NCBI GenBank assembly: GCA_025928155.1 | Contig: JAICKC010000014.1 | Span: 1-35,435 of the forward strand | Length of the DNA: 35,435 nt | Direction of reading: 5' to 3' | Source: Candidatus Saccharimonadota bacterium | Lineage (GTDB): Bacteria > Patescibacteriota > Saccharimonadia > Saccharimonadales > UBA4665 | Translations under genes and position numbers: made by a program | The notes under the pieces: generated by a model | Seen by the model: the letters and a program-made list of their open reading frames with translations, nothing else | The model's database searches: none | Told to the model about the DNA's origin: nothing | Shown: positions 4,127 to 32,795 of the stretch, in pieces | How the letters are laid out: every line of letters begins with the position of its first letter | How positions within the stretch are numbered: position 1 is the stretch's first letter

Positions 4127-4789
4127 ATGACGACGCACGTTCTGTACTTCAACGGCCTCGGCCGAGGCAAAATGCGCTGGCGTGAACGGCTAGTCGTACG
4201 GTATCTTGCCAAGCGGGAAGTTGCGGTTACCCATGTGCCGATTGACTGGTATGCGGACGAATCGTTCCAAGCTCTGCTCGCACGTACGGTCAAAATCACC
4301 AAGGCGCAGCTCAAAGAGGGCGGTGATCTGGTTCTGGTCGGTTCAAGTGCCGGCGGCAGTCTGGTAGTGAATATAGCCGGCGAGCTGCATGACTCGCATC
4401 TCAGTGCGGTCACTCTTTGCAGCCGTCTGCACGAAGCGCCGCTCAAATGGTGGGACCGGCGCGATCTGACGCGCATGGCACATATTGGCAGCAAGCATCC
4501 TGCTCAAGCCTTCTATGATTCAGTGACATATTGCGGCAACATCACCATTCCAAAACTTATAGCTAAAGATAAACAGCGGATCATTATCACGCAGCAGTGG
4601 GCCGACTTTGTCGTACCGCGCCAGACTATGGACGTACCTGGTGTCCGCATCTACAGGGTTTCTGGCCTCGGTCACGGCTGGGGTATCGCCATGGCTGCCC
4701 GCCGTTTACCCAAGATTATAGAGAGCCTACCGTTGGCTGGCAGGTTGCGCACAGACCACTCAGCTCAATCTGATGCTTCCGTAACGTAA
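4127..4789 (+). CDS. Alpha/beta hydrolase-fold protein
   Basis: A 220-residue alpha/beta-hydrolase-like protein. It has an N-terminal strand VLYFNGLGRG (oxyanion-hole region), a nucleophile elbow GSSAGG with Ser74, a late acid in QQWADFVVP and a C-terminal His in SGLGHGWG. These give a plausible Ser-Asp-His triad; the substrate is unknown. It lies 14 nt after the Nudix gene and is probably in the same operon. Its last 74 bp overlap the end of the convergent fur-like gene, so the two transcripts would be antisense there. Confidence 0.75.
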   Translation: MTTHVLYFNGLGRGKMRWRERLVVRYLAKREVAVTHVPIDWYADESFQALLARTVKITKAQLKEGGDLVLVGSSAGGSLVVNIAGELHDSHLSAVTLCSRLHEAPLKWWDRRDLTRMAHIGSKHPAQAFYDSVTYCGNITIPKLIAKDKQRIIITQQWADFVVPRQTMDVPGVRIYRVSGLGHGWGIAMAARRLPKIIESLPLAGRLRTDHSAQSDASVT

Positions 4790-5144
4790 AATTGTACGCA
4801 ACAGCCAAATCGTGTAAGTAGGCTTCGAGTTTAGGGTCTTCTGACAGCGGGACTACTTGGCCGCAGTGCAAGCATGTTGCGTGGTGATGATGCTCGTGAA
4901 AGGCATCGCTTAGCTCCAGTTTATATTTCCAACCGGCTTGCAGTCGCTGTACTATAGAGAGCCGCTCAAACAGTGCCACGGAGCGATACACAGTCGCCCG
5001 GTCGATGTCATTGCAGCGGATCACGAGTTCACCCATGGTGAGTGGTTCCTGCCCCTGCAAGGCAGCCAAGACAGCCTGCCGAGCTGCAGTTACACTTTGT
5101 CCGTGCTGCTTCAGAACCTGTTCTAGTTGTGCCGAAGGCTGCAT
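4716..5144 (-). CDS. Fur/Zur-family metal-responsive repressor
   Basis: A 142-residue Fer-uptake-regulator family protein. It has an N-terminal winged helix (QSVTAARQAVLAAL, then DRATVYRSVALFERL), a His-rich hinge HEHHHHATCLHCG and two CxxC pairs (CLHC, CATC) that hold structural zinc. The neighbouring divergent ZIP transporter suggests zinc or another divalent metal as the effector, so a Zur role is the best guess. ATG 5144 is preferred over the ATG at 5180, which lies inside the palindromic operator, because domain homology starts there and TGCTACGAT ends 6 nt upstream. The operator next to its own -35 region implies autoregulation. Confidence 0.88.
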   Translation of the reverse strand: MQPSAQLEQVLKQHGQSVTAARQAVLAALQGQEPLTMGELVIRCNDIDRATVYRSVALFERLSIVQRLQAGWKYKLELSDAFHEHHHHATCLHCGQVVPLSEDPKLEAYLHDLAVAYNFTLRKHQIELSGLCATCQPTVGSL

Positions 5145-5150
5145 GTCGCA

Positions 5151-5159
5151 ATCGTAGCA
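5151..5159 (-). promoter_or_regulatory. Extended -10 TGCTACGAT of fur-like gene
   Basis: On the minus strand TGCTACGAT ends 6 nt before the ATG at 5144, predicting a leaderless transcript. Confidence 0.5.
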
Positions 5160-5175
5160 TAAATTGCGACAAAGT

Positions 5176-5194
5176 TGCAAAAATAATTATTGCA
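5176..5194. promoter_or_regulatory. Fur/Zur-box-like 19-bp palindrome
   Basis: TGCAAAAATAATTATTGCA is a 9-1-9 inverted repeat with 8 of 9 positions paired, the geometry of Fur-family operators. It lies about 20 bp upstream of the -10 of the regulator gene and overlaps the proposed -35 (5190-5195) of the ZIP gene, so one bound dimer could repress both directions. Confidence 0.7.
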
Positions 5195-5240: not shown

Positions 5241-5963
5241 ATGCTCCCAATTTTACTATCCTGCGGAACGTTCTTTTCCACCCTGACGGGTGGGCTTACT
5301 GGGCTTAAGAACAGCGATAAACTGCACCGGCTGCTCGGCTTTACCGCTGGCGTGGTCATGGGCGTGGTAGCCTTTGATCTCTTACCGGAAATCTTTGACT
5401 CACTGGGTCACGGCGTATCGGCGCGTGACGCTATGATTGCGCTGATGTGCGGCTTTCTGCTGTTCCATGTCGTCGAAAAAACCATCCTCATCCACCACAG
5501 CCAGGAGCATGACTACGAAGTACACCACCACCCAGAGGTGGGCATTGTGAGCGCGCTGGCGCTCTCCGGCCACAGTTTTCTGGACGGACTTGGCATTGGC
5601 CTTGGCTTCCAGGCGGGTAACGCGGTCGGTGTTGCCGTGGCCATTGCCGTTATCGCACACGACTTTTCGGACGGCTTAAACACTGTGACCCTAATGCTCA
5701 TAAATCGCAACAATCGTCGTCGTGCGTTCGCTATGCTGTTGCTCGATGCACTGGCACCAGTCGTTGGAGCGGTTGTCGGCACGTCGGTGCACATAAGCGA
5801 TGCCGGGCTCACGTTGTATCTCAGTTTCTTTGCCGGCTTTTTACTGTACATCGGAGCCAGCGAAATCCTGCCCGAAGCCCATAGCAAGCATTCGTCTTAT
5901 GCGACCATCGGCCTGACTGTCCTGGGTGCGGTGTTCATGTTTTTTGTCACGCGTTTTGCCTAG
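5241..5963 (+). CDS. ZIP-family divalent metal transporter
   Basis: A 240-residue integral membrane protein of the ZIP (Zrt/Irt-like) family. It has about eight hydrophobic segments and the two signature metal-site helices, HSFLDGLGIG (TM4) and HDFSDGLN (TM5). A His-rich cytoplasmic loop, HHSQEHDYEVHHHPE, lies between TM3 and TM4. It should carry zinc or a related divalent metal across the cytoplasmic membrane. Divergent placement from a Fur/Zur-like regulator with a shared palindrome argues for metal-regulated uptake. The L,D-transpeptidase gene follows after 5 nt. Confidence 0.92.
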   Translation: MLPILLSCGTFFSTLTGGLTGLKNSDKLHRLLGFTAGVVMGVVAFDLLPEIFDSLGHGVSARDAMIALMCGFLLFHVVEKTILIHHSQEHDYEVHHHPEVGIVSALALSGHSFLDGLGIGLGFQAGNAVGVAVAIAVIAHDFSDGLNTVTLMLINRNNRRRAFAMLLLDALAPVVGAVVGTSVHISDAGLTLYLSFFAGFLLYIGASEILPEAHSKHSSYATIGLTVLGAVFMFFVTRFA

Positions 5964-9706: not shown

Positions 9707-10396
9707 ATGCGGCTACTTGTTGTTGAGGACGAAGAGCGTATTGCGAAAGCTATTAAACGTGCGCTTGAATTGCATCACTTCGCGGTTGATATTGTAAGTG
9801 ACGCAGACAGTGGGCTTGTTGCCGCAGCCGATCCCGATTATGACATGGTAATTCTTGACCGCATGCTTCCCGGCAGTATGGACGGCGTAGCCATTTGCAA
9901 GCGCCTATGTGACCAAGGCGTAGACACGCCAATTATTATGCTGACTGCACTTGGTGAAATTGACGACCGCGTGGACGGTTTGCAAGCCGGCGCTGACGAC
10001 TACCTACAAAAACCATTTGCTATGAAAGAGCTGATTGCCCGTGTACAAACCCTCCTGCGTCGTCCGCGCCACACACTCGGGACGACACTCACCGTTGACG
10101 ATCTGCACTATGACCCGGTGACTTTTACGGCCACGCGTAGCGGTAAACCATTGTTACTCTCAGCGAAAGAAATAAAGTTACTATCGTACATGCTCTACAA
10201 TCCGGGACAAGTGGTGAGCAAAGACAAAATTATCAATCATCTATGGGATGAGGACGCGCTGGTTATTCCTAACACAGTCGAGGTCTATATGGGCTACCTG
10301 CGCAAAAAGATCGATACTAACTTTCCCGACAGGCCACCGCTTATTCACACAATCCGCGGTTTCGGCTATCGGATAGGGGTGATGGATAATGTTTAA
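9707..10396 (+). CDS. OmpR/PhoB-family response regulator
   Basis: A 229-residue response regulator. The receiver domain (1-115) shows the acidic pocket VVEDEE, phospho-acceptor Asp51 in VILDRMLPG, Thr80 in IIMLTA and Lys102 in YLQKPF. The C-terminal OmpR-type winged helix (about 130-225) includes LSAKEIKLLSYMLYNPGQVV and HTIRGFGYRI. It is the cytoplasmic output of the kinase encoded next, which overlaps it by 8 nt (ATGTTTAA). Its position directly before the flavin electron-transfer genes makes them the likely target (inference). Confidence 0.95.
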   Translation: MRLLVVEDEERIAKAIKRALELHHFAVDIVSDADSGLVAAADPDYDMVILDRMLPGSMDGVAICKRLCDQGVDTPIIMLTALGEIDDRVDGLQAGADDYLQKPFAMKELIARVQTLLRRPRHTLGTTLTVDDLHYDPVTFTATRSGKPLLLSAKEIKLLSYMLYNPGQVVSKDKIINHLWDEDALVIPNTVEVYMGYLRKKIDTNFPDRPPLIHTIRGFGYRIGVMDNV

Positions 10397-11375
10397 GTCG
10401 GCAACCGTCAAACTGACGTTTTGGTATGTGTTGCTGGCGGTGGCACTATGCCTAGCGTATAGCGTTGTTGTCTACCACCTCTCAACCGAGGAGTTGAGTG
10501 AGGCGCTCAATCACCAATACCATAGCTATACCGATAATGACCATGGCCGTTATAACATACCACTGCCAGAGCCGTACATACACGAACATGGTGCTCATTT
10601 ACTGAAGGGTTTGGTTTGGTTCAATGTCGTTGTTGTTGCCGGATCATGCATTGCTGGTTACTTTTTAGCGCGCCAAACACTCAGACCGATCGAGCACGCA
10701 CACCAAGCACAAGTTCGTTTTACAGCTGAAGCAAGCCACGAACTGCGCACGCCACTTGCCGCCATACGTGCCGATACTGAAGTGGCGCTCATGGAAAAAG
10801 GCCTAACCACCAAAACAAAACATACCCTCGAGGGCAACCTCCGTGATATCGAGCGTCTTGAGCAGTTGACGGCCAATCTACTTGATATTGCTCGCTACCA
10901 AAATGGCTCACAGATAAAACTAGCTGTGCTGGATTTTGATGAGCTAATTCGACAGGCCATAAAACAGCTTGCACATAAGGCAGAGCAAAAGCATATAAAG
11001 TTCAAAGCAGCCATTACACCCGTACAAGTTATGGGCGAACAGCGTGTATTAGAGCAGCTTGTCATTATTATTCTCGACAATGCCATTAAATATAGCCACG
11101 AAAAGACTACCGTTACCATTTCGCTCAACACCGATGATACCCATGCTGTGCTGATAATCAAAGATAAGGGCGTTGGCATACCAACCAGTGACTTGCCGCA
11201 TATCTTTGAGCACTTTTATCGTTCTCAAAACACCGATGCAATCTCCCACACATCCGGCTACGGACTTGGCCTACCACTGGCTCAAGAAATTATCAAAGCC
11301 CACAACGGCCAGATAACAATAGAGAGTCATGAGAAGCGTGGCACCACCGCGACCATTACGTTGCCACTAGCCTAA
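10389..11375 (+). CDS. Sensor histidine kinase
   Basis: A 328-residue membrane histidine kinase. Helix 1 spans about 8-28 and helix 2 about 71-94, enclosing a short outside loop of about 42 residues rich in His, Tyr and acidic residues (YHSYTDNDHGRY, IHEHGAH). That composition could bind a metal or sense redox state, which is speculative. The HisKA box is EASHELRTPLAAI with His117. The ATPase domain has the N box IIILDNAIKYS and G boxes KDKGVGIP and GYGLGLPLA. The linker contains QTLRPIEHAHQAQVRF, as in OmpR-type kinases. It overlaps its response regulator by 8 nt. Confidence 0.94.
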   Translation: MFKSATVKLTFWYVLLAVALCLAYSVVVYHLSTEELSEALNHQYHSYTDNDHGRYNIPLPEPYIHEHGAHLLKGLVWFNVVVVAGSCIAGYFLARQTLRPIEHAHQAQVRFTAEASHELRTPLAAIRADTEVALMEKGLTTKTKHTLEGNLRDIERLEQLTANLLDIARYQNGSQIKLAVLDFDELIRQAIKQLAHKAEQKHIKFKAAITPVQVMGEQRVLEQLVIIILDNAIKYSHEKTTVTISLNTDDTHAVLIIKDKGVGIPTSDLPHIFEHFYRSQNTDAISHTSGYGLGLPLAQEIIKAHNGQITIESHEKRGTTATITLPLA

Positions 11376-11407
11376 ACCCCAGTAAGCAAACCTACAGCCT
11401 CCGTCTG

Positions 11408-11413
11408 TATAGT
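11408..11413 (+). promoter_or_regulatory. -10 TATAGT of FMN-binding protein gene
   Basis: TATAGT ends 7 nt before ATG 11421, suggesting a separate leaderless promoter for the flavin genes inside the two-component/flavin block. Confidence 0.5.
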
Positions 11414-11420
11414 TCTAAGC

Positions 11421-11903
11421 ATGAAGAAAGTGTTTATTGGACTCGCCGTGTTTGCTGTTCTTGTTGTATATAGTCACGGCATACGCGACCACCAACCGAA
11501 GATCAGTACCCCCTCATCGTTAACCGCCGGTAATTCGTCAAACGGGGCAGGCTCAACCGACACTACACCAAGCAATAACAGTGCCAGTAGCGGCAGTCAG
11601 AGTTCCAGCCAGTCAAGCGGCTCATATAAAGACGGCTCATACACCGGCAGTACTGAAAATGCCTACTATGGTGACGTACGGGTAAAGGCAACTATTTCGG
11701 GTGGCAAGATTACCGATGTGACATTCTTACAGTACCCAGATACCCACTCAACTTCTGTCTATATCAACAAACAGGCTATGCCGTACCTCCAGCAAGAGGC
11801 TATCAAGGCCCAGAGCGCCAACGTCAACATTATTAGTGGTGCGACATACACCAGTCAGGCATTTATACAATCGCTGCAAAATGCTCTGTCGCAAGCCTCG
11901 TAA
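11421..11903 (+). CDS. Exported FMN-binding-domain protein (NqrC/RnfG-like)
   Basis: A 160-residue protein with an uncleaved or signal-type N-terminal helix (3-18), a Ser/Gly/Thr/Asn-rich linker (about 30-70) and a C-terminal FMN_bind domain (about 70-158). The flavinylation motif SGAT is visible at 139-142 (IISGATYTSQAF), with Thr142 the expected site of covalent FMN attachment by ApbE. The domain is the one found in NqrC, RnfG and extracellular electron-transfer proteins. It should sit on the outer face of the membrane as a one- or two-electron carrier. The ApbE gene follows after 5 nt, and the NqrB-like reductase gene after that. Confidence 0.9.
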   Translation: MKKVFIGLAVFAVLVVYSHGIRDHQPKISTPSSLTAGNSSNGAGSTDTTPSNNSASSGSQSSSQSSGSYKDGSYTGSTENAYYGDVRVKATISGGKITDVTFLQYPDTHSTSVYINKQAMPYLQQEAIKAQSANVNIISGATYTSQAFIQSLQNALSQAS

Positions 11904-11908
11904 ACTGC

Positions 11909-12646
11909 ATGAAGCAAACAAAAATCATCATGGGTATGCCGATTACTGTTGAGATTACGGACTCCAAATACACAACACTACTTGCTGACACCTTCGCTTT
12001 TTTTCGTGAGGTAGACAACCGCTACAGCACCTACAAAGACGACAGTGAAATCACGCAGGTCAATAACGGTATGCCGCGGAGTGACTGGAGTGACGAAATG
12101 AAAACAATTATGCAGCTCTGCGAAGAAACAAAACAAGCAACGAACGGCTACTTTGACATCAGACATGACGGCAAACTCGATCCATCCGGCCTTATAAAAG
12201 GCTGGTCTATTTGGGAGGCTGCGAAGCGTCTTAAAAAGCGAGGTGTGAAAAACTTTTATATTGAAGCTGGCGGTGATATCCAGGCTCAGGGTAACAATGA
12301 ATCTAATGAACCATGGACGGTTGGTATACGGAACCCGTTTAATTCTGACGAGATCATAAAGGTACTCCATGTAAAAAATAAAGGTGTCGCCACGTCAGGC
12401 ACATACATTCGCGGCCAGCATATTTACAATCCTCACCTGCCACAAGACGAGCTGCACGATGTACAAAGCCTGACAGTTATTGCTGACAATATCTACGAAG
12501 CCGACCGTTTTGCCACGGCTGCCTTTGCTATGGGTCAAGACGGTATTGCTTTTGTCGAACAACAAGAAGGGCTTGAGGGGTATATGGTAGATGACGCTGG
12601 TACAGCAACGTTCACCAGTGGCTTCAAGGAGTATGCGTATGCTTAA
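11909..12646 (+). CDS. apbE: ApbE-type FAD:protein FMN transferase
   Basis: A 245-residue ApbE-family flavin transferase, which moves FMN from FAD to a Thr in the SGAT motif of target proteins. Family segments are visible: MGMPITVEI at the N-terminus, DNRYSTYKDDSEI, LDPSGLIKGW, EAGGDIQAQG, GVATSGTYIRGQHIYNPH, and the metal-site helix EADRFATAAFAMG with its D-x-x-x-T pattern. Unlike many ApbE proteins it has no signal peptide or lipobox and begins directly with the catalytic domain, so it should act in the cytoplasm. Its likely substrate is the FMN-binding protein encoded 5 nt upstream. Confidence 0.93.
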   Translation: MKQTKIIMGMPITVEITDSKYTTLLADTFAFFREVDNRYSTYKDDSEITQVNNGMPRSDWSDEMKTIMQLCEETKQATNGYFDIRHDGKLDPSGLIKGWSIWEAAKRLKKRGVKNFYIEAGGDIQAQGNNESNEPWTVGIRNPFNSDEIIKVLHVKNKGVATSGTYIRGQHIYNPHLPQDELHDVQSLTVIADNIYEADRFATAAFAMGQDGIAFVEQQEGLEGYMVDDAGTATFTSGFKEYAYA

Positions 12647-14165
12647 AAGCATTGATGACTTTCTGAATAAAACCACCATGTACCGACTGCTCATCTACTA
12701 TTTAGGCGGACTGCTCGGTATTGCTTTTGTCGTGGGTATTTTTGGTAAGCTAGGATTTAACCCAGTCGCACTCCTAGTATCAGTAGTGATTCTTATTGCT
12801 GCCTGCTGGGGTATTAACCGTGCTTTTGCGTTTGTTTTCAAGGTGCCGGTTAACCATGAATCCTCGATTATTACGGCACTCATTCTGGCATTGCTAATTA
12901 CACCAAGTCTTGATAAGTATGGTTTACTATTCCTATTGGCGGCTTCCGGTCTGGCTATGGCCTCCAAGTATATTTTGACCATTAAAGATGTTCACATATT
13001 CAACCCAGCAGCACTAGCGGTTGTGTTGACTGCGCTCGGCCCGCAGCAAAACGCCAGCTGGTGGATTGGCACAGCTATCATGTTGCCATTCGTGATTATG
13101 GGTGGTCTATTGATGGTGCGAAAGATCAGACGCGAGGCTATGGTTAGTGGGTTTTTGTTGGCAACATTTGCGGCAACTGCACTCTTAACGGTCATTGATC
13201 ACGGCAATGCGCTCACAGCCCTCAAACAAGCAGCAGTAACCTCACCAATCTTTTTCTTAGGATTTGTTATGTTAACCGAGCCACTTACCTCGCCAGGCAC
13301 AAAGGGTAAGCAAACATGGTTCGGTATATTGGTCGGCCTACTGGTGCCACCACAGGTTCACCTATTCAGTTTCTATACATCGCCAGAGATTGCATTAGTA
13401 ATTGGTAACGTCTTTGCTTATGTGGTTAATCCTCGTGTTCGCGTATTCCCTGTGCTTAGTCAAAAGCTCCACATTGCAGCAAATACTATAGATTTTGTCT
13501 TTAACCCAGATAAAAAACTAGCCTATCAACCGGGGCAATACATGGAGTGGACGTTGCCACATGGCAATATTGACGATCGCGGCAACCGCCGCTACTTCAC
13601 CCTTGCCTCATCACCGACTGAGGCAACGCTACGACTTGGTATCAAGTTTTACGAACCGAGTAGTAGTTATAAAAAGGCCATGATTGAGATGACTGAGCAG
13701 ACCAACATTGTTGCCGCACAGGTCGCTGGTGATTTTGTTATGCCTCGTAATAAAAAACGAAAGCTCGTGTTTGTTGCCGGCGGTATTGGTGTAACGCCAT
13801 TCCGTAGTATGATCAAATACCTCACAGACACCAACGAGCAACGTGATGTAAAAGTGCTATATGCTGCCAACACGATTCAAGATATTGCCTATGCAGATGT
13901 TTTTGAGCAAGCACGAAAGCAGCTTGGTATAGCAACAACATACGTCTTATCTAAGCCCGATCCGAATAATCAAATCCCTGGACAATACTGGCGACAAGGT
14001 TATGTCGATGCTGAGGCTATTCGTGCCACCGTACCTGATTATCGCGAACGTACATTCTATATTTCAGGCAGTCACCAAATGGTTATTGCCGTACAAAACG
14101 CTTTAACAAATATTGGCGTTCCGCGACGAAACATTAAGACAGATTATTTCCCGGGTTATGTATAG
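12639..14165 (+). CDS. NqrB/RnfD-like membrane domain fused to FNR-like flavoreductase
   Basis: A 508-residue fusion. Residues about 10-270 form a polytopic membrane domain with the NqrB/RnfD pattern (HIFNPAALAVVLTALGP, then LTEPLTSPGTKGKQTWFG). Residues about 275-508 form a ferredoxin-NADP-reductase-like module: FAD-binding RRYFTLASSP, NAD(P)-binding FVAGGIGVTPFRSM and the C-terminal FYISGSHQMV and DYFPGYV. It should take electrons from cytoplasmic NAD(P)H through FAD into the membrane. No 2Fe-2S domain and no other Nqr or Rnf subunits are present. Start 12639 has AAGGAG (12626-12631) 7 nt upstream and overlaps apbE by 8 nt. The frame is open from 12591, but that part overlaps apbE. Confidence 0.88.
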   Translation: MLKSIDDFLNKTTMYRLLIYYLGGLLGIAFVVGIFGKLGFNPVALLVSVVILIAACWGINRAFAFVFKVPVNHESSIITALILALLITPSLDKYGLLFLLAASGLAMASKYILTIKDVHIFNPAALAVVLTALGPQQNASWWIGTAIMLPFVIMGGLLMVRKIRREAMVSGFLLATFAATALLTVIDHGNALTALKQAAVTSPIFFLGFVMLTEPLTSPGTKGKQTWFGILVGLLVPPQVHLFSFYTSPEIALVIGNVFAYVVNPRVRVFPVLSQKLHIAANTIDFVFNPDKKLAYQPGQYMEWTLPHGNIDDRGNRRYFTLASSPTEATLRLGIKFYEPSSSYKKAMIEMTEQTNIVAAQVAGDFVMPRNKKRKLVFVAGGIGVTPFRSMIKYLTDTNEQRDVKVLYAANTIQDIAYADVFEQARKQLGIATTYVLSKPDPNNQIPGQYWRQGYVDAEAIRATVPDYRERTFYISGSHQMVIAVQNALTNIGVPRRNIKTDYFPGYV

Positions 14166-14343
14166 CGGGTTGTGTAAAATTAAAGCTGACCAAGCAAAGC
14201 CAGTACGAGAAAATGAGCGTCGCATCCGTATTAGCATGAACTTCAAAGAAGCTGTAAAAAAGATGTCCAAAACTCCGCCTATCAGCAATAAAGGCTTAGG
14301 CAAGTGGGTTAAGGAACAGCGAAAGATAGCGACAATTAATTAG
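14158..14343 (+). CDS. Small basic hypothetical protein
   Basis: A 61-residue protein, rich in Lys and Arg, that overlaps the reductase fusion gene by 8 nt (ATGTATAG), the same junction type as the upstream genes in this block. The C-terminal half MNFKEAVKKMSKTPPISNKG resembles short proteins I recall with an F-x-x-A-x-K-K-x-x-x-T-P-P pattern, but I cannot name a family. It has no membrane segment. A shorter version could start at ATG 14236. Being the last gene of the flavin block, it may be functionally linked or merely a passenger. Confidence 0.5.
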   Translation: MYSGLCKIKADQAKPVRENERRIRISMNFKEAVKKMSKTPPISNKGLGKWVKEQRKIATIN

Positions 14344-32123: not shown

Positions 32124-32795
32124 CTATAGCTCAGCGTAGCCGTCGTAGTAGTCGAAGACAATGCGGCTACGTGGGGTGCCGAGGGCTTCCAGGCTGCCGC
32201 GCAGATCTTCCACAAAAGTCTGGCTCCCTGAGAGGTATACAAGCGAGTCGGGTGGGGTCGTGGCTTTGATTTCTTGGGCGGTGAGTTCATTAGGTGCGAG
32301 GATGATTTGCTTGAGCTGCAACGGATAGACATCGGTAAGCTCGCGGAAGAGCTGCTCGCGTCGAGTGCGCAGAACATAGAATAAGAAAATGGGGCGTTCC
32401 TCCTTGCGCGCAATCAGGTCACGCAGCATGCTGGCGTATGATGCCATGCCAATTCCGCCGGCTACGAACACCAGCGGCACGTTGGGCGATTTGGGCAGCA
32501 CCAGGTCGCCCATGGCCTCGCCGATGCGCGCTGAGGCGTCCGCGGTCAGAGTCTGCAGAGCATACTTATATGGAGTTTGCAGCTCGAAATGTTTGGTTAT
32601 AAAGGTGATTGATGGCTCACTGGGTAGCGAAGCCAGTGTAAATGTGCGCGAGCTACCCCGCGGGTCGCCGGCAACATCCGATAAAAACAAATCCACATAC
32701 TGCCCTGGCACGAAATCTACCGCCCGCTGGGACCGGAACCAGTACTGCCAAATTCCTAGAGCCAGCTCGAGCTTCCGTTCAAATACCACGTCCAT
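32124..32795 (-). CDS. Stand-alone FNR-like flavoreductase
   Basis: A 223-residue ferredoxin-NADP-reductase-like protein: FAD-binding SRTFTLASLPSEP, NAD(P)-binding FVAGGIGMASYASM and C-terminal LVYLSGSQTFV with DYYDGYAEL. It lacks a 2Fe-2S domain. Motif by motif it matches the C-terminal half of the NqrB-like fusion encoded at 12639-14165, so the two modules are probably paralogues. It would pass electrons from NAD(P)H to an unknown acceptor. TATAAT ends 6 nt before ATG 32795, so the mRNA should be leaderless. Confidence 0.88.
   Translation of the reverse strand: MDVVFERKLELALGIWQYWFRSQRAVDFVPGQYVDLFLSDVAGDPRGSSRTFTLASLPSEPSITFITKHFELQTPYKYALQTLTADASARIGEAMGDLVLPKSPNVPLVFVAGGIGMASYASMLRDLIARKEERPIFLFYVLRTRREQLFRELTDVYPLQLKQIILAPNELTAQEIKATTPPDSLVYLSGSQTFVEDLRGSLEALGTPRSRIVFDYYDGYAEL

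Follow-up and report, generated by a model that had tools for sequence, protein, structure and literature searches.

An NQR/RNF-like flavin electron-transfer locus with an adjacent two-component system in a Saccharimonadia genome

What would a Candidatus Saccharimonadota bacterium do with a compact set of genes for flavin-based electron transfer, is such a set new, and where might its electrons go? The genes lie in the window (the whole stretch of DNA analysed, 35,435 nucleotides), where all five occupy the plus strand from 9707 to 14165, head to tail and tightly packed: the response regulator and kinase genes overlap by 8 bp, gaps of 45 bp and 5 bp separate the kinase from the FMN_bind gene and the latter from the ApbE gene, which in turn overlaps the gene for a fusion protein. 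Pfam searches recovered five genes named in a first-pass annotation of this DNA, those for regulator, kinase, FMN_bind protein, ApbE and fusion. The features are as follows.

9707 to 10396, plus strand: OmpR/PhoB-type response regulator (Pfam Response_reg and Trans_reg_C, above cut-off)
10389 to 11375, plus strand: membrane histidine kinase with a short extracytosolic loop (Pfam HisKA and HATPase_c, above cut-off; loop aligned)
11421 to 11903, plus strand: membrane-anchored FMN_bind protein, the presumed extracytosolic electron carrier (FMN_bind, 48 bits)
11835 to 11846, plus strand: SGAT motif (residues 139-142), with Thr142 as predicted site of FMN attachment
11909 to 12646, plus strand: ApbE flavin transferase, short and lacking an export signal (Pfam ApbE, 147 bits)
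12639 to 14165, plus strand: fusion of an NqrB/RnfD-like membrane domain with an FNR-like NAD(P)H/FAD domain
12639 to 13430, plus strand: NqrB/RnfD-like membrane domain of the fusion, lacking a covalent-flavin motif (AlphaFold model, PDB matches, motif scan)
13437 to 14162, plus strand: FNR-like domain of the fusion, with RYFT and GGIGVTPF motifs (NAD_binding_1, 51 bits; NqrF and flavohemoglobin matches)
14158 to 14343, plus strand: 61-residue ORF, judged to lie outside the system (neither relatives nor a convincing Pfam match)

The fusion most likely starts at the ATG at 12639 rather than at 12591, with AAGGAG lying upstream at about 12626-12631. Scans for promoters and terminators gave results near chance level. 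For the 61-residue ORF, which the annotation had counted among the parts, the surroundings of the other fusion genes contain no relative at E<=5 and Pfam gives no convincing match; we judge that it does not belong to the system.

The locus among known flavin-based systems

In the reading that we favour, with a probability of roughly 85%, the locus encodes an NQR/RNF-like system that carries electrons outward, with NAD(P)H as donor and with FAD, a membrane flavin and an FMN outside as successive carriers. The C-terminal domain of the fusion would bring electrons from NADH or NADPH onto FAD at the cytosolic side; its NqrB/RnfD-like domain would conduct them across the membrane through a non-covalent flavin; an FMN outside, presumably fixed by ApbE to Thr142 of the anchored partner, would receive them and then pass them to an acceptor; and the local two-component system probably controls expression of the operon. 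The annotation had proposed the same path, which parts and fold support and which coincides with one already put forward for the NQR/RNF-like system (Meheust 2021, PMC8238504; Huang 2024, PMC11334425).

Nor is the system itself new: it received its name in 2021, when its presence in the candidate phyla radiation was also described. Meheust 2021 (PMC8238504) gives 127 clusters, which belong 'primarily' to Actinobacteria and the candidate phyla radiation, and Huang 2024 (PMC11334425) a modelled two-subunit complex whose membrane subunit has lost the covalent flavin site. The window locus is a member of these published systems and has what their definition names: an NqrB/RnfD-like N-terminal and a PF00175 C-terminal domain, clustered with ApbE and FMN_bind. 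Held in common are the two-subunit plan, the domain order of the fusion, the FMN_bind partner and the ApbE, as well as a membrane domain without covalent site and the occurrence in the candidate phyla radiation. Set against the system as the consulted passages present it, the window differs in its adjacent two-component system and in an ApbE without export signal. No biochemistry was found in the literature for any member of the family. What is added here is the pairing of an ApbE lacking an export signal with an anchored target, and the co-occurrence of the fusion with heme-copper oxidases.

Na+-NQR and RNF have in common with the window a homologous NqrB/RnfD fold, an NqrC/RnfG-type FMN_bind protein and an NqrF-like FAD/NAD domain. 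Unlike them, the window system lacks PF02508 subunits, a 2Fe-2S domain and a covalent FMN threonine in its membrane domain, and there is therefore no basis for ion pumping. The annotation had noted two of these absences from the sequence, and both proved correct: PF02508 (NqrD/E, RnfA/E) gave no match anywhere in the 98% complete host genome, no other Nqr/Rnf subunit lies beside the locus, and Pfam detects no 2Fe-2S domain in the fusion, which has a single Cys. An extracytosolic FMN_bind carrier and an ApbE-type transferase are likewise common to Listeria-type extracellular electron transfer (PplA), from which the window is set apart by its membrane protein, NqrB/RnfD-like and fused to FNR; the PplA model, whose cut-off is 325 bits, was matched with a score of no more than 21.

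The fusion, its FMN partner and the site of flavinylation

How firmly can the membrane domain be assigned? Against NQR2_RnfD_RnfE (PF03116) the window fusion scores 23.7 bits, below the Pfam cut-off of 27.7. This weak match is nevertheless real: in 17 of 18 relatives PF03116 is hit with E<=0.01 (best 1.7e-14), a search with a profile built from the membrane domain leads to RnfD of a solved RNF complex (E 3e-4), and the fold agrees. When the full-length fusion served as query in a fold search, the listed matches were driven by the FNR half only, and the membrane domain was therefore modelled separately. The AlphaFold model of this domain alone (pLDDT 84.7) has RnfD or NqrB as each of its top 15 PDB matches, which are also the sole ones at E<=0.001; the better score to a non-redox membrane family that, according to the annotation, would have refuted its reading did not appear. 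A scan of the same domain found no [SDGT][GSA]A[TS] motif, and of the membrane domains of 17 relatives 4 have scattered hits that do not share one position. Since the flavinylation motif is missing, the membrane flavin of the annotated path, a step that otherwise stands, is unlikely to be a covalent FMN of the NqrB type.

The C-terminus of the fusion carries NAD_binding_1 (PF00175; 50.7 bits, cut-off 22), present in all 18 relatives, and the best solved matches of this half are the reductase domains of NqrF and flavohemoglobin. Three further FNR-like reductases related to this half, all without an NqrB-like domain, are encoded in the same genome (window 32124-32795, minus strand; C20:24485-25210; C23:3297-3974); the one on C20 has C-terminal hydrophobic segments and adjoins a CsoR-type regulator.

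FMN_bind and ApbE are each encoded once in the host genome (1.30 Mb, 98% complete). A profile of 17 FMN_bind relatives leads to crystal structure 8P2A (E 1.3e-19), a domain of SaFMN3 of Streptomyces azureus for which covalent FMN at -184 mV has been demonstrated (PMC10339131); it is the closest solved FMN_bind domain, although SaFMN3 has three FMN domains and the window protein one (PMC10339131). The SGAT site of the annotation falls on residues 139-142, with Thr142 as the predicted acceptor of FMN. An N-terminal hydrophobic segment was found by hydropathy in 57 of 59 FMN_bind proteins; the more positive side is the N-terminus in 54 of these 57 and the reverse applies to none, which by charge indicates an N-in/C-out orientation. 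Motif counts gave neither a Tat motif nor a lipobox in this set; the window protein has a membrane anchor by hydropathy, and thereby supplies the one or more export signals that Meheust 2021 asks of a flavinylation cluster with ApbE or FMN_bind.

The window ApbE matches 13 solved FMN transferase sequences (best 5.1e-36) and belongs to the ApbE sequence family, whose conserved C-terminal region it has, but it lacks some 50 positions of the model in a stretch flanked by two conserved blocks; this short form prevails in most loci, and three aligned relatives have the longer one. Neither export signal, lipid anchor nor N-terminal hydrophobic segment was detected in it by hydropathy and motif. Such a segment is also missing from 50 of 52 ApbE proteins (the other two seem to be ORFs called too long), the export calls for both ApbE and FMN_bind proteins being hydropathy and motif counts, not the output of a signal-peptide predictor.

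A leaderless ApbE and a membrane-anchored target raise the question of where flavinylation happens, as ApbE enzymes with exported targets, where characterised, are mostly exported too. Perhaps the ApbE modifies the FMN_bind protein in the cytosol, either ahead of export or while export proceeds; alternatively, the FMN domain may remain inside. The near-universal lack of a hydrophobic N-terminus (50 of 52) points this way, and cytosolic ApbE enzymes without signal, acting on cytosolic targets, are on record (PMC12052999). However, the charge distribution of the FMN proteins favours N-in/C-out (54 of 57, none opposite), there is no Tat motif for export of a folded FMN protein, and the ApbE could itself exit by a route without classical signal. 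We thus regard cytosolic flavinylation as a tentative idea, somewhat unlikely to be correct.

Gene order and regulation

A scan using one genome per species yielded 19 relatives of the fusion, 18 of them untruncated, all in genomes labelled Saccharibacteria, labelled as other candidate-phyla-radiation lineages, or carrying no lineage label. In 15 of these 18 the FMN_bind, ApbE and fusion genes directly adjoin one another, so that the finding which would have refuted the annotation, homologous loci never carrying ApbE and FMN_bind genes, does not apply. Among 380 genomes drawn evenly from the phylum, full-length fusions occupy 63 loci in 60 genomes; by hand count, the trio is contiguous in about 30 of 62 examined loci and at least one partner is present in about 46 of 62. 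Neither partner gene is adjacent in about a quarter of the sampled fusion genes. Loci of this kind include L081, L084, L085, L088, L092, L099, L101, L103-L105, L107 and L108, with mostly lower-scoring fusions, where the flavinylated partner may be gone or may be encoded at another place.

Does the two-component system belong to this arrangement? A search of all 60 fusion-bearing genomes for PF00486 regulators placed nine of these regulators, from eight genomes, no more than 5 kb from a fusion gene, where chance would give 1.05 at most (Poisson P about 2e-6, or about 1e-5 leaving the window out). Because of this excess the association is recurrent and above chance, yet it is a minority add-on, present in 8 of 60 fusion-bearing genomes: the 'own two-component regulator' of the annotation holds at the window locus and in a minority of relatives only. 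The fusion-adjacent regulators vary in position and similarity, which suggests separate recruitment. In L002 and L054, in a close relative, two-component pairs flank the trio on both sides.

Oxygen, metals and the candidate acceptors

The host genome had been described as reduced and probably fermentative. It is not purely fermentative, since it encodes a bo3-type oxidase in a cluster that comprises COX1, a subunit II bearing the COX aromatic-rich motif, and a CyoE-like protein recognised by eye. This cluster adjoins a predicted NDH-2 and resembles, together with the latter, the chain described in one rhizosphere Saccharibacteria bacterium (PMC6031116). Across the sample, with kinship ignored throughout, a heme-copper oxidase occurs in 17 of 60 fusion-bearing and 13 of 320 other genomes (odds ratio 9), the corresponding figures being 9/11 versus 8/26 inside the window's class (odds ratio 10, P 0.01) and 8/49 versus 5/294 outside it (odds ratio 11, P 7e-5). 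It is therefore conceivable that the system takes part in oxygen-linked respiration or redox balance, e.g. by handing electrons to quinone, O2 or an envelope peroxide or repair enzyme where a quinol oxidase is present. Besides the co-occurrence at odds ratios of about 10 inside and outside the class, and the proximity of the host's bo3-type cluster to NDH-2, this would agree with O2 being an acceptor for reduced SaFMN3, a related FMN_bind protein (PMC10339131). On the other hand, the oxidase is missing in 43 of 60 fusion genomes, co-occurrence that ignores kinship may just mark aerobic habitats or common ancestry, and oxidase and fusion gene sets are not adjacent in the host genome; an oxygen-linked role is thus doubtful. 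Still less probable is the wider proposition that Patescibacteria use a leaderless ApbE to flavinylate the anchored FMN_bind protein in the cytosol before it crosses the membrane, whereas characterised extracytosolic flavoproteins mature in the reverse order, and that in this phylum the system goes together with a life based on oxygen respiration.

Could the system instead reduce iron or copper outside the cytosol, for metal uptake or homeostasis? VIT1 iron transporters occur in six published NQR/RNF-like clusters; a Fur-family regulator (4716-5180, minus strand) and a ZIP transporter (5241-5963, plus strand) lie some 4 kb upstream of the cluster, in divergent orientation; histidines are plentiful in the kinase loop, both in the window and in its nearest relatives; and CsoR-type regulators lie within 7 kb at four loci, against 0.7 expected. 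Yet ZIP and Fur are not kept near the closest relatives, the kinase-loop histidines are mostly gone in the next relative (L004), heavy-metal HMA proteins do not obviously cluster near fusion genes, and the CsoR count is small and comes from one among several tests. A copper link, considered when CopA-like ATPases and CsoR seemed frequent, was abandoned with HMA unclustered and CsoR weakly enriched, and metal sensing by the kinase was likewise set aside, as the His-rich loop is not kept past the closest relatives. We consider extracytosolic metal reduction unlikely; like the oxygen-linked reading, it describes a possible role without strong support.

A conserved neighbour as acceptor can be dismissed, as no acceptor gene is kept near the fusions and the genes clustering within seven of them are mostly of common families (ABC transporters, sigma factors, glycosyltransferases), with no steady partner. 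Separately, a small exported cupredoxin-like protein, picked out by eye from sequence alone, is encoded a few genes from the fusion in L087, L088, L099 and L107, and might possibly be a carrier in those genomes.

Returning to the NQR/RNF-like reading, fold, gene order and phylum-wide sampling lend independent support to the view that some of the smallest bacterial genomes retain a dedicated electron route out of the cytosol. Two testable points are thereby raised, namely where an ApbE without signal and its exported target meet, and whether the system accompanies the use of oxygen.
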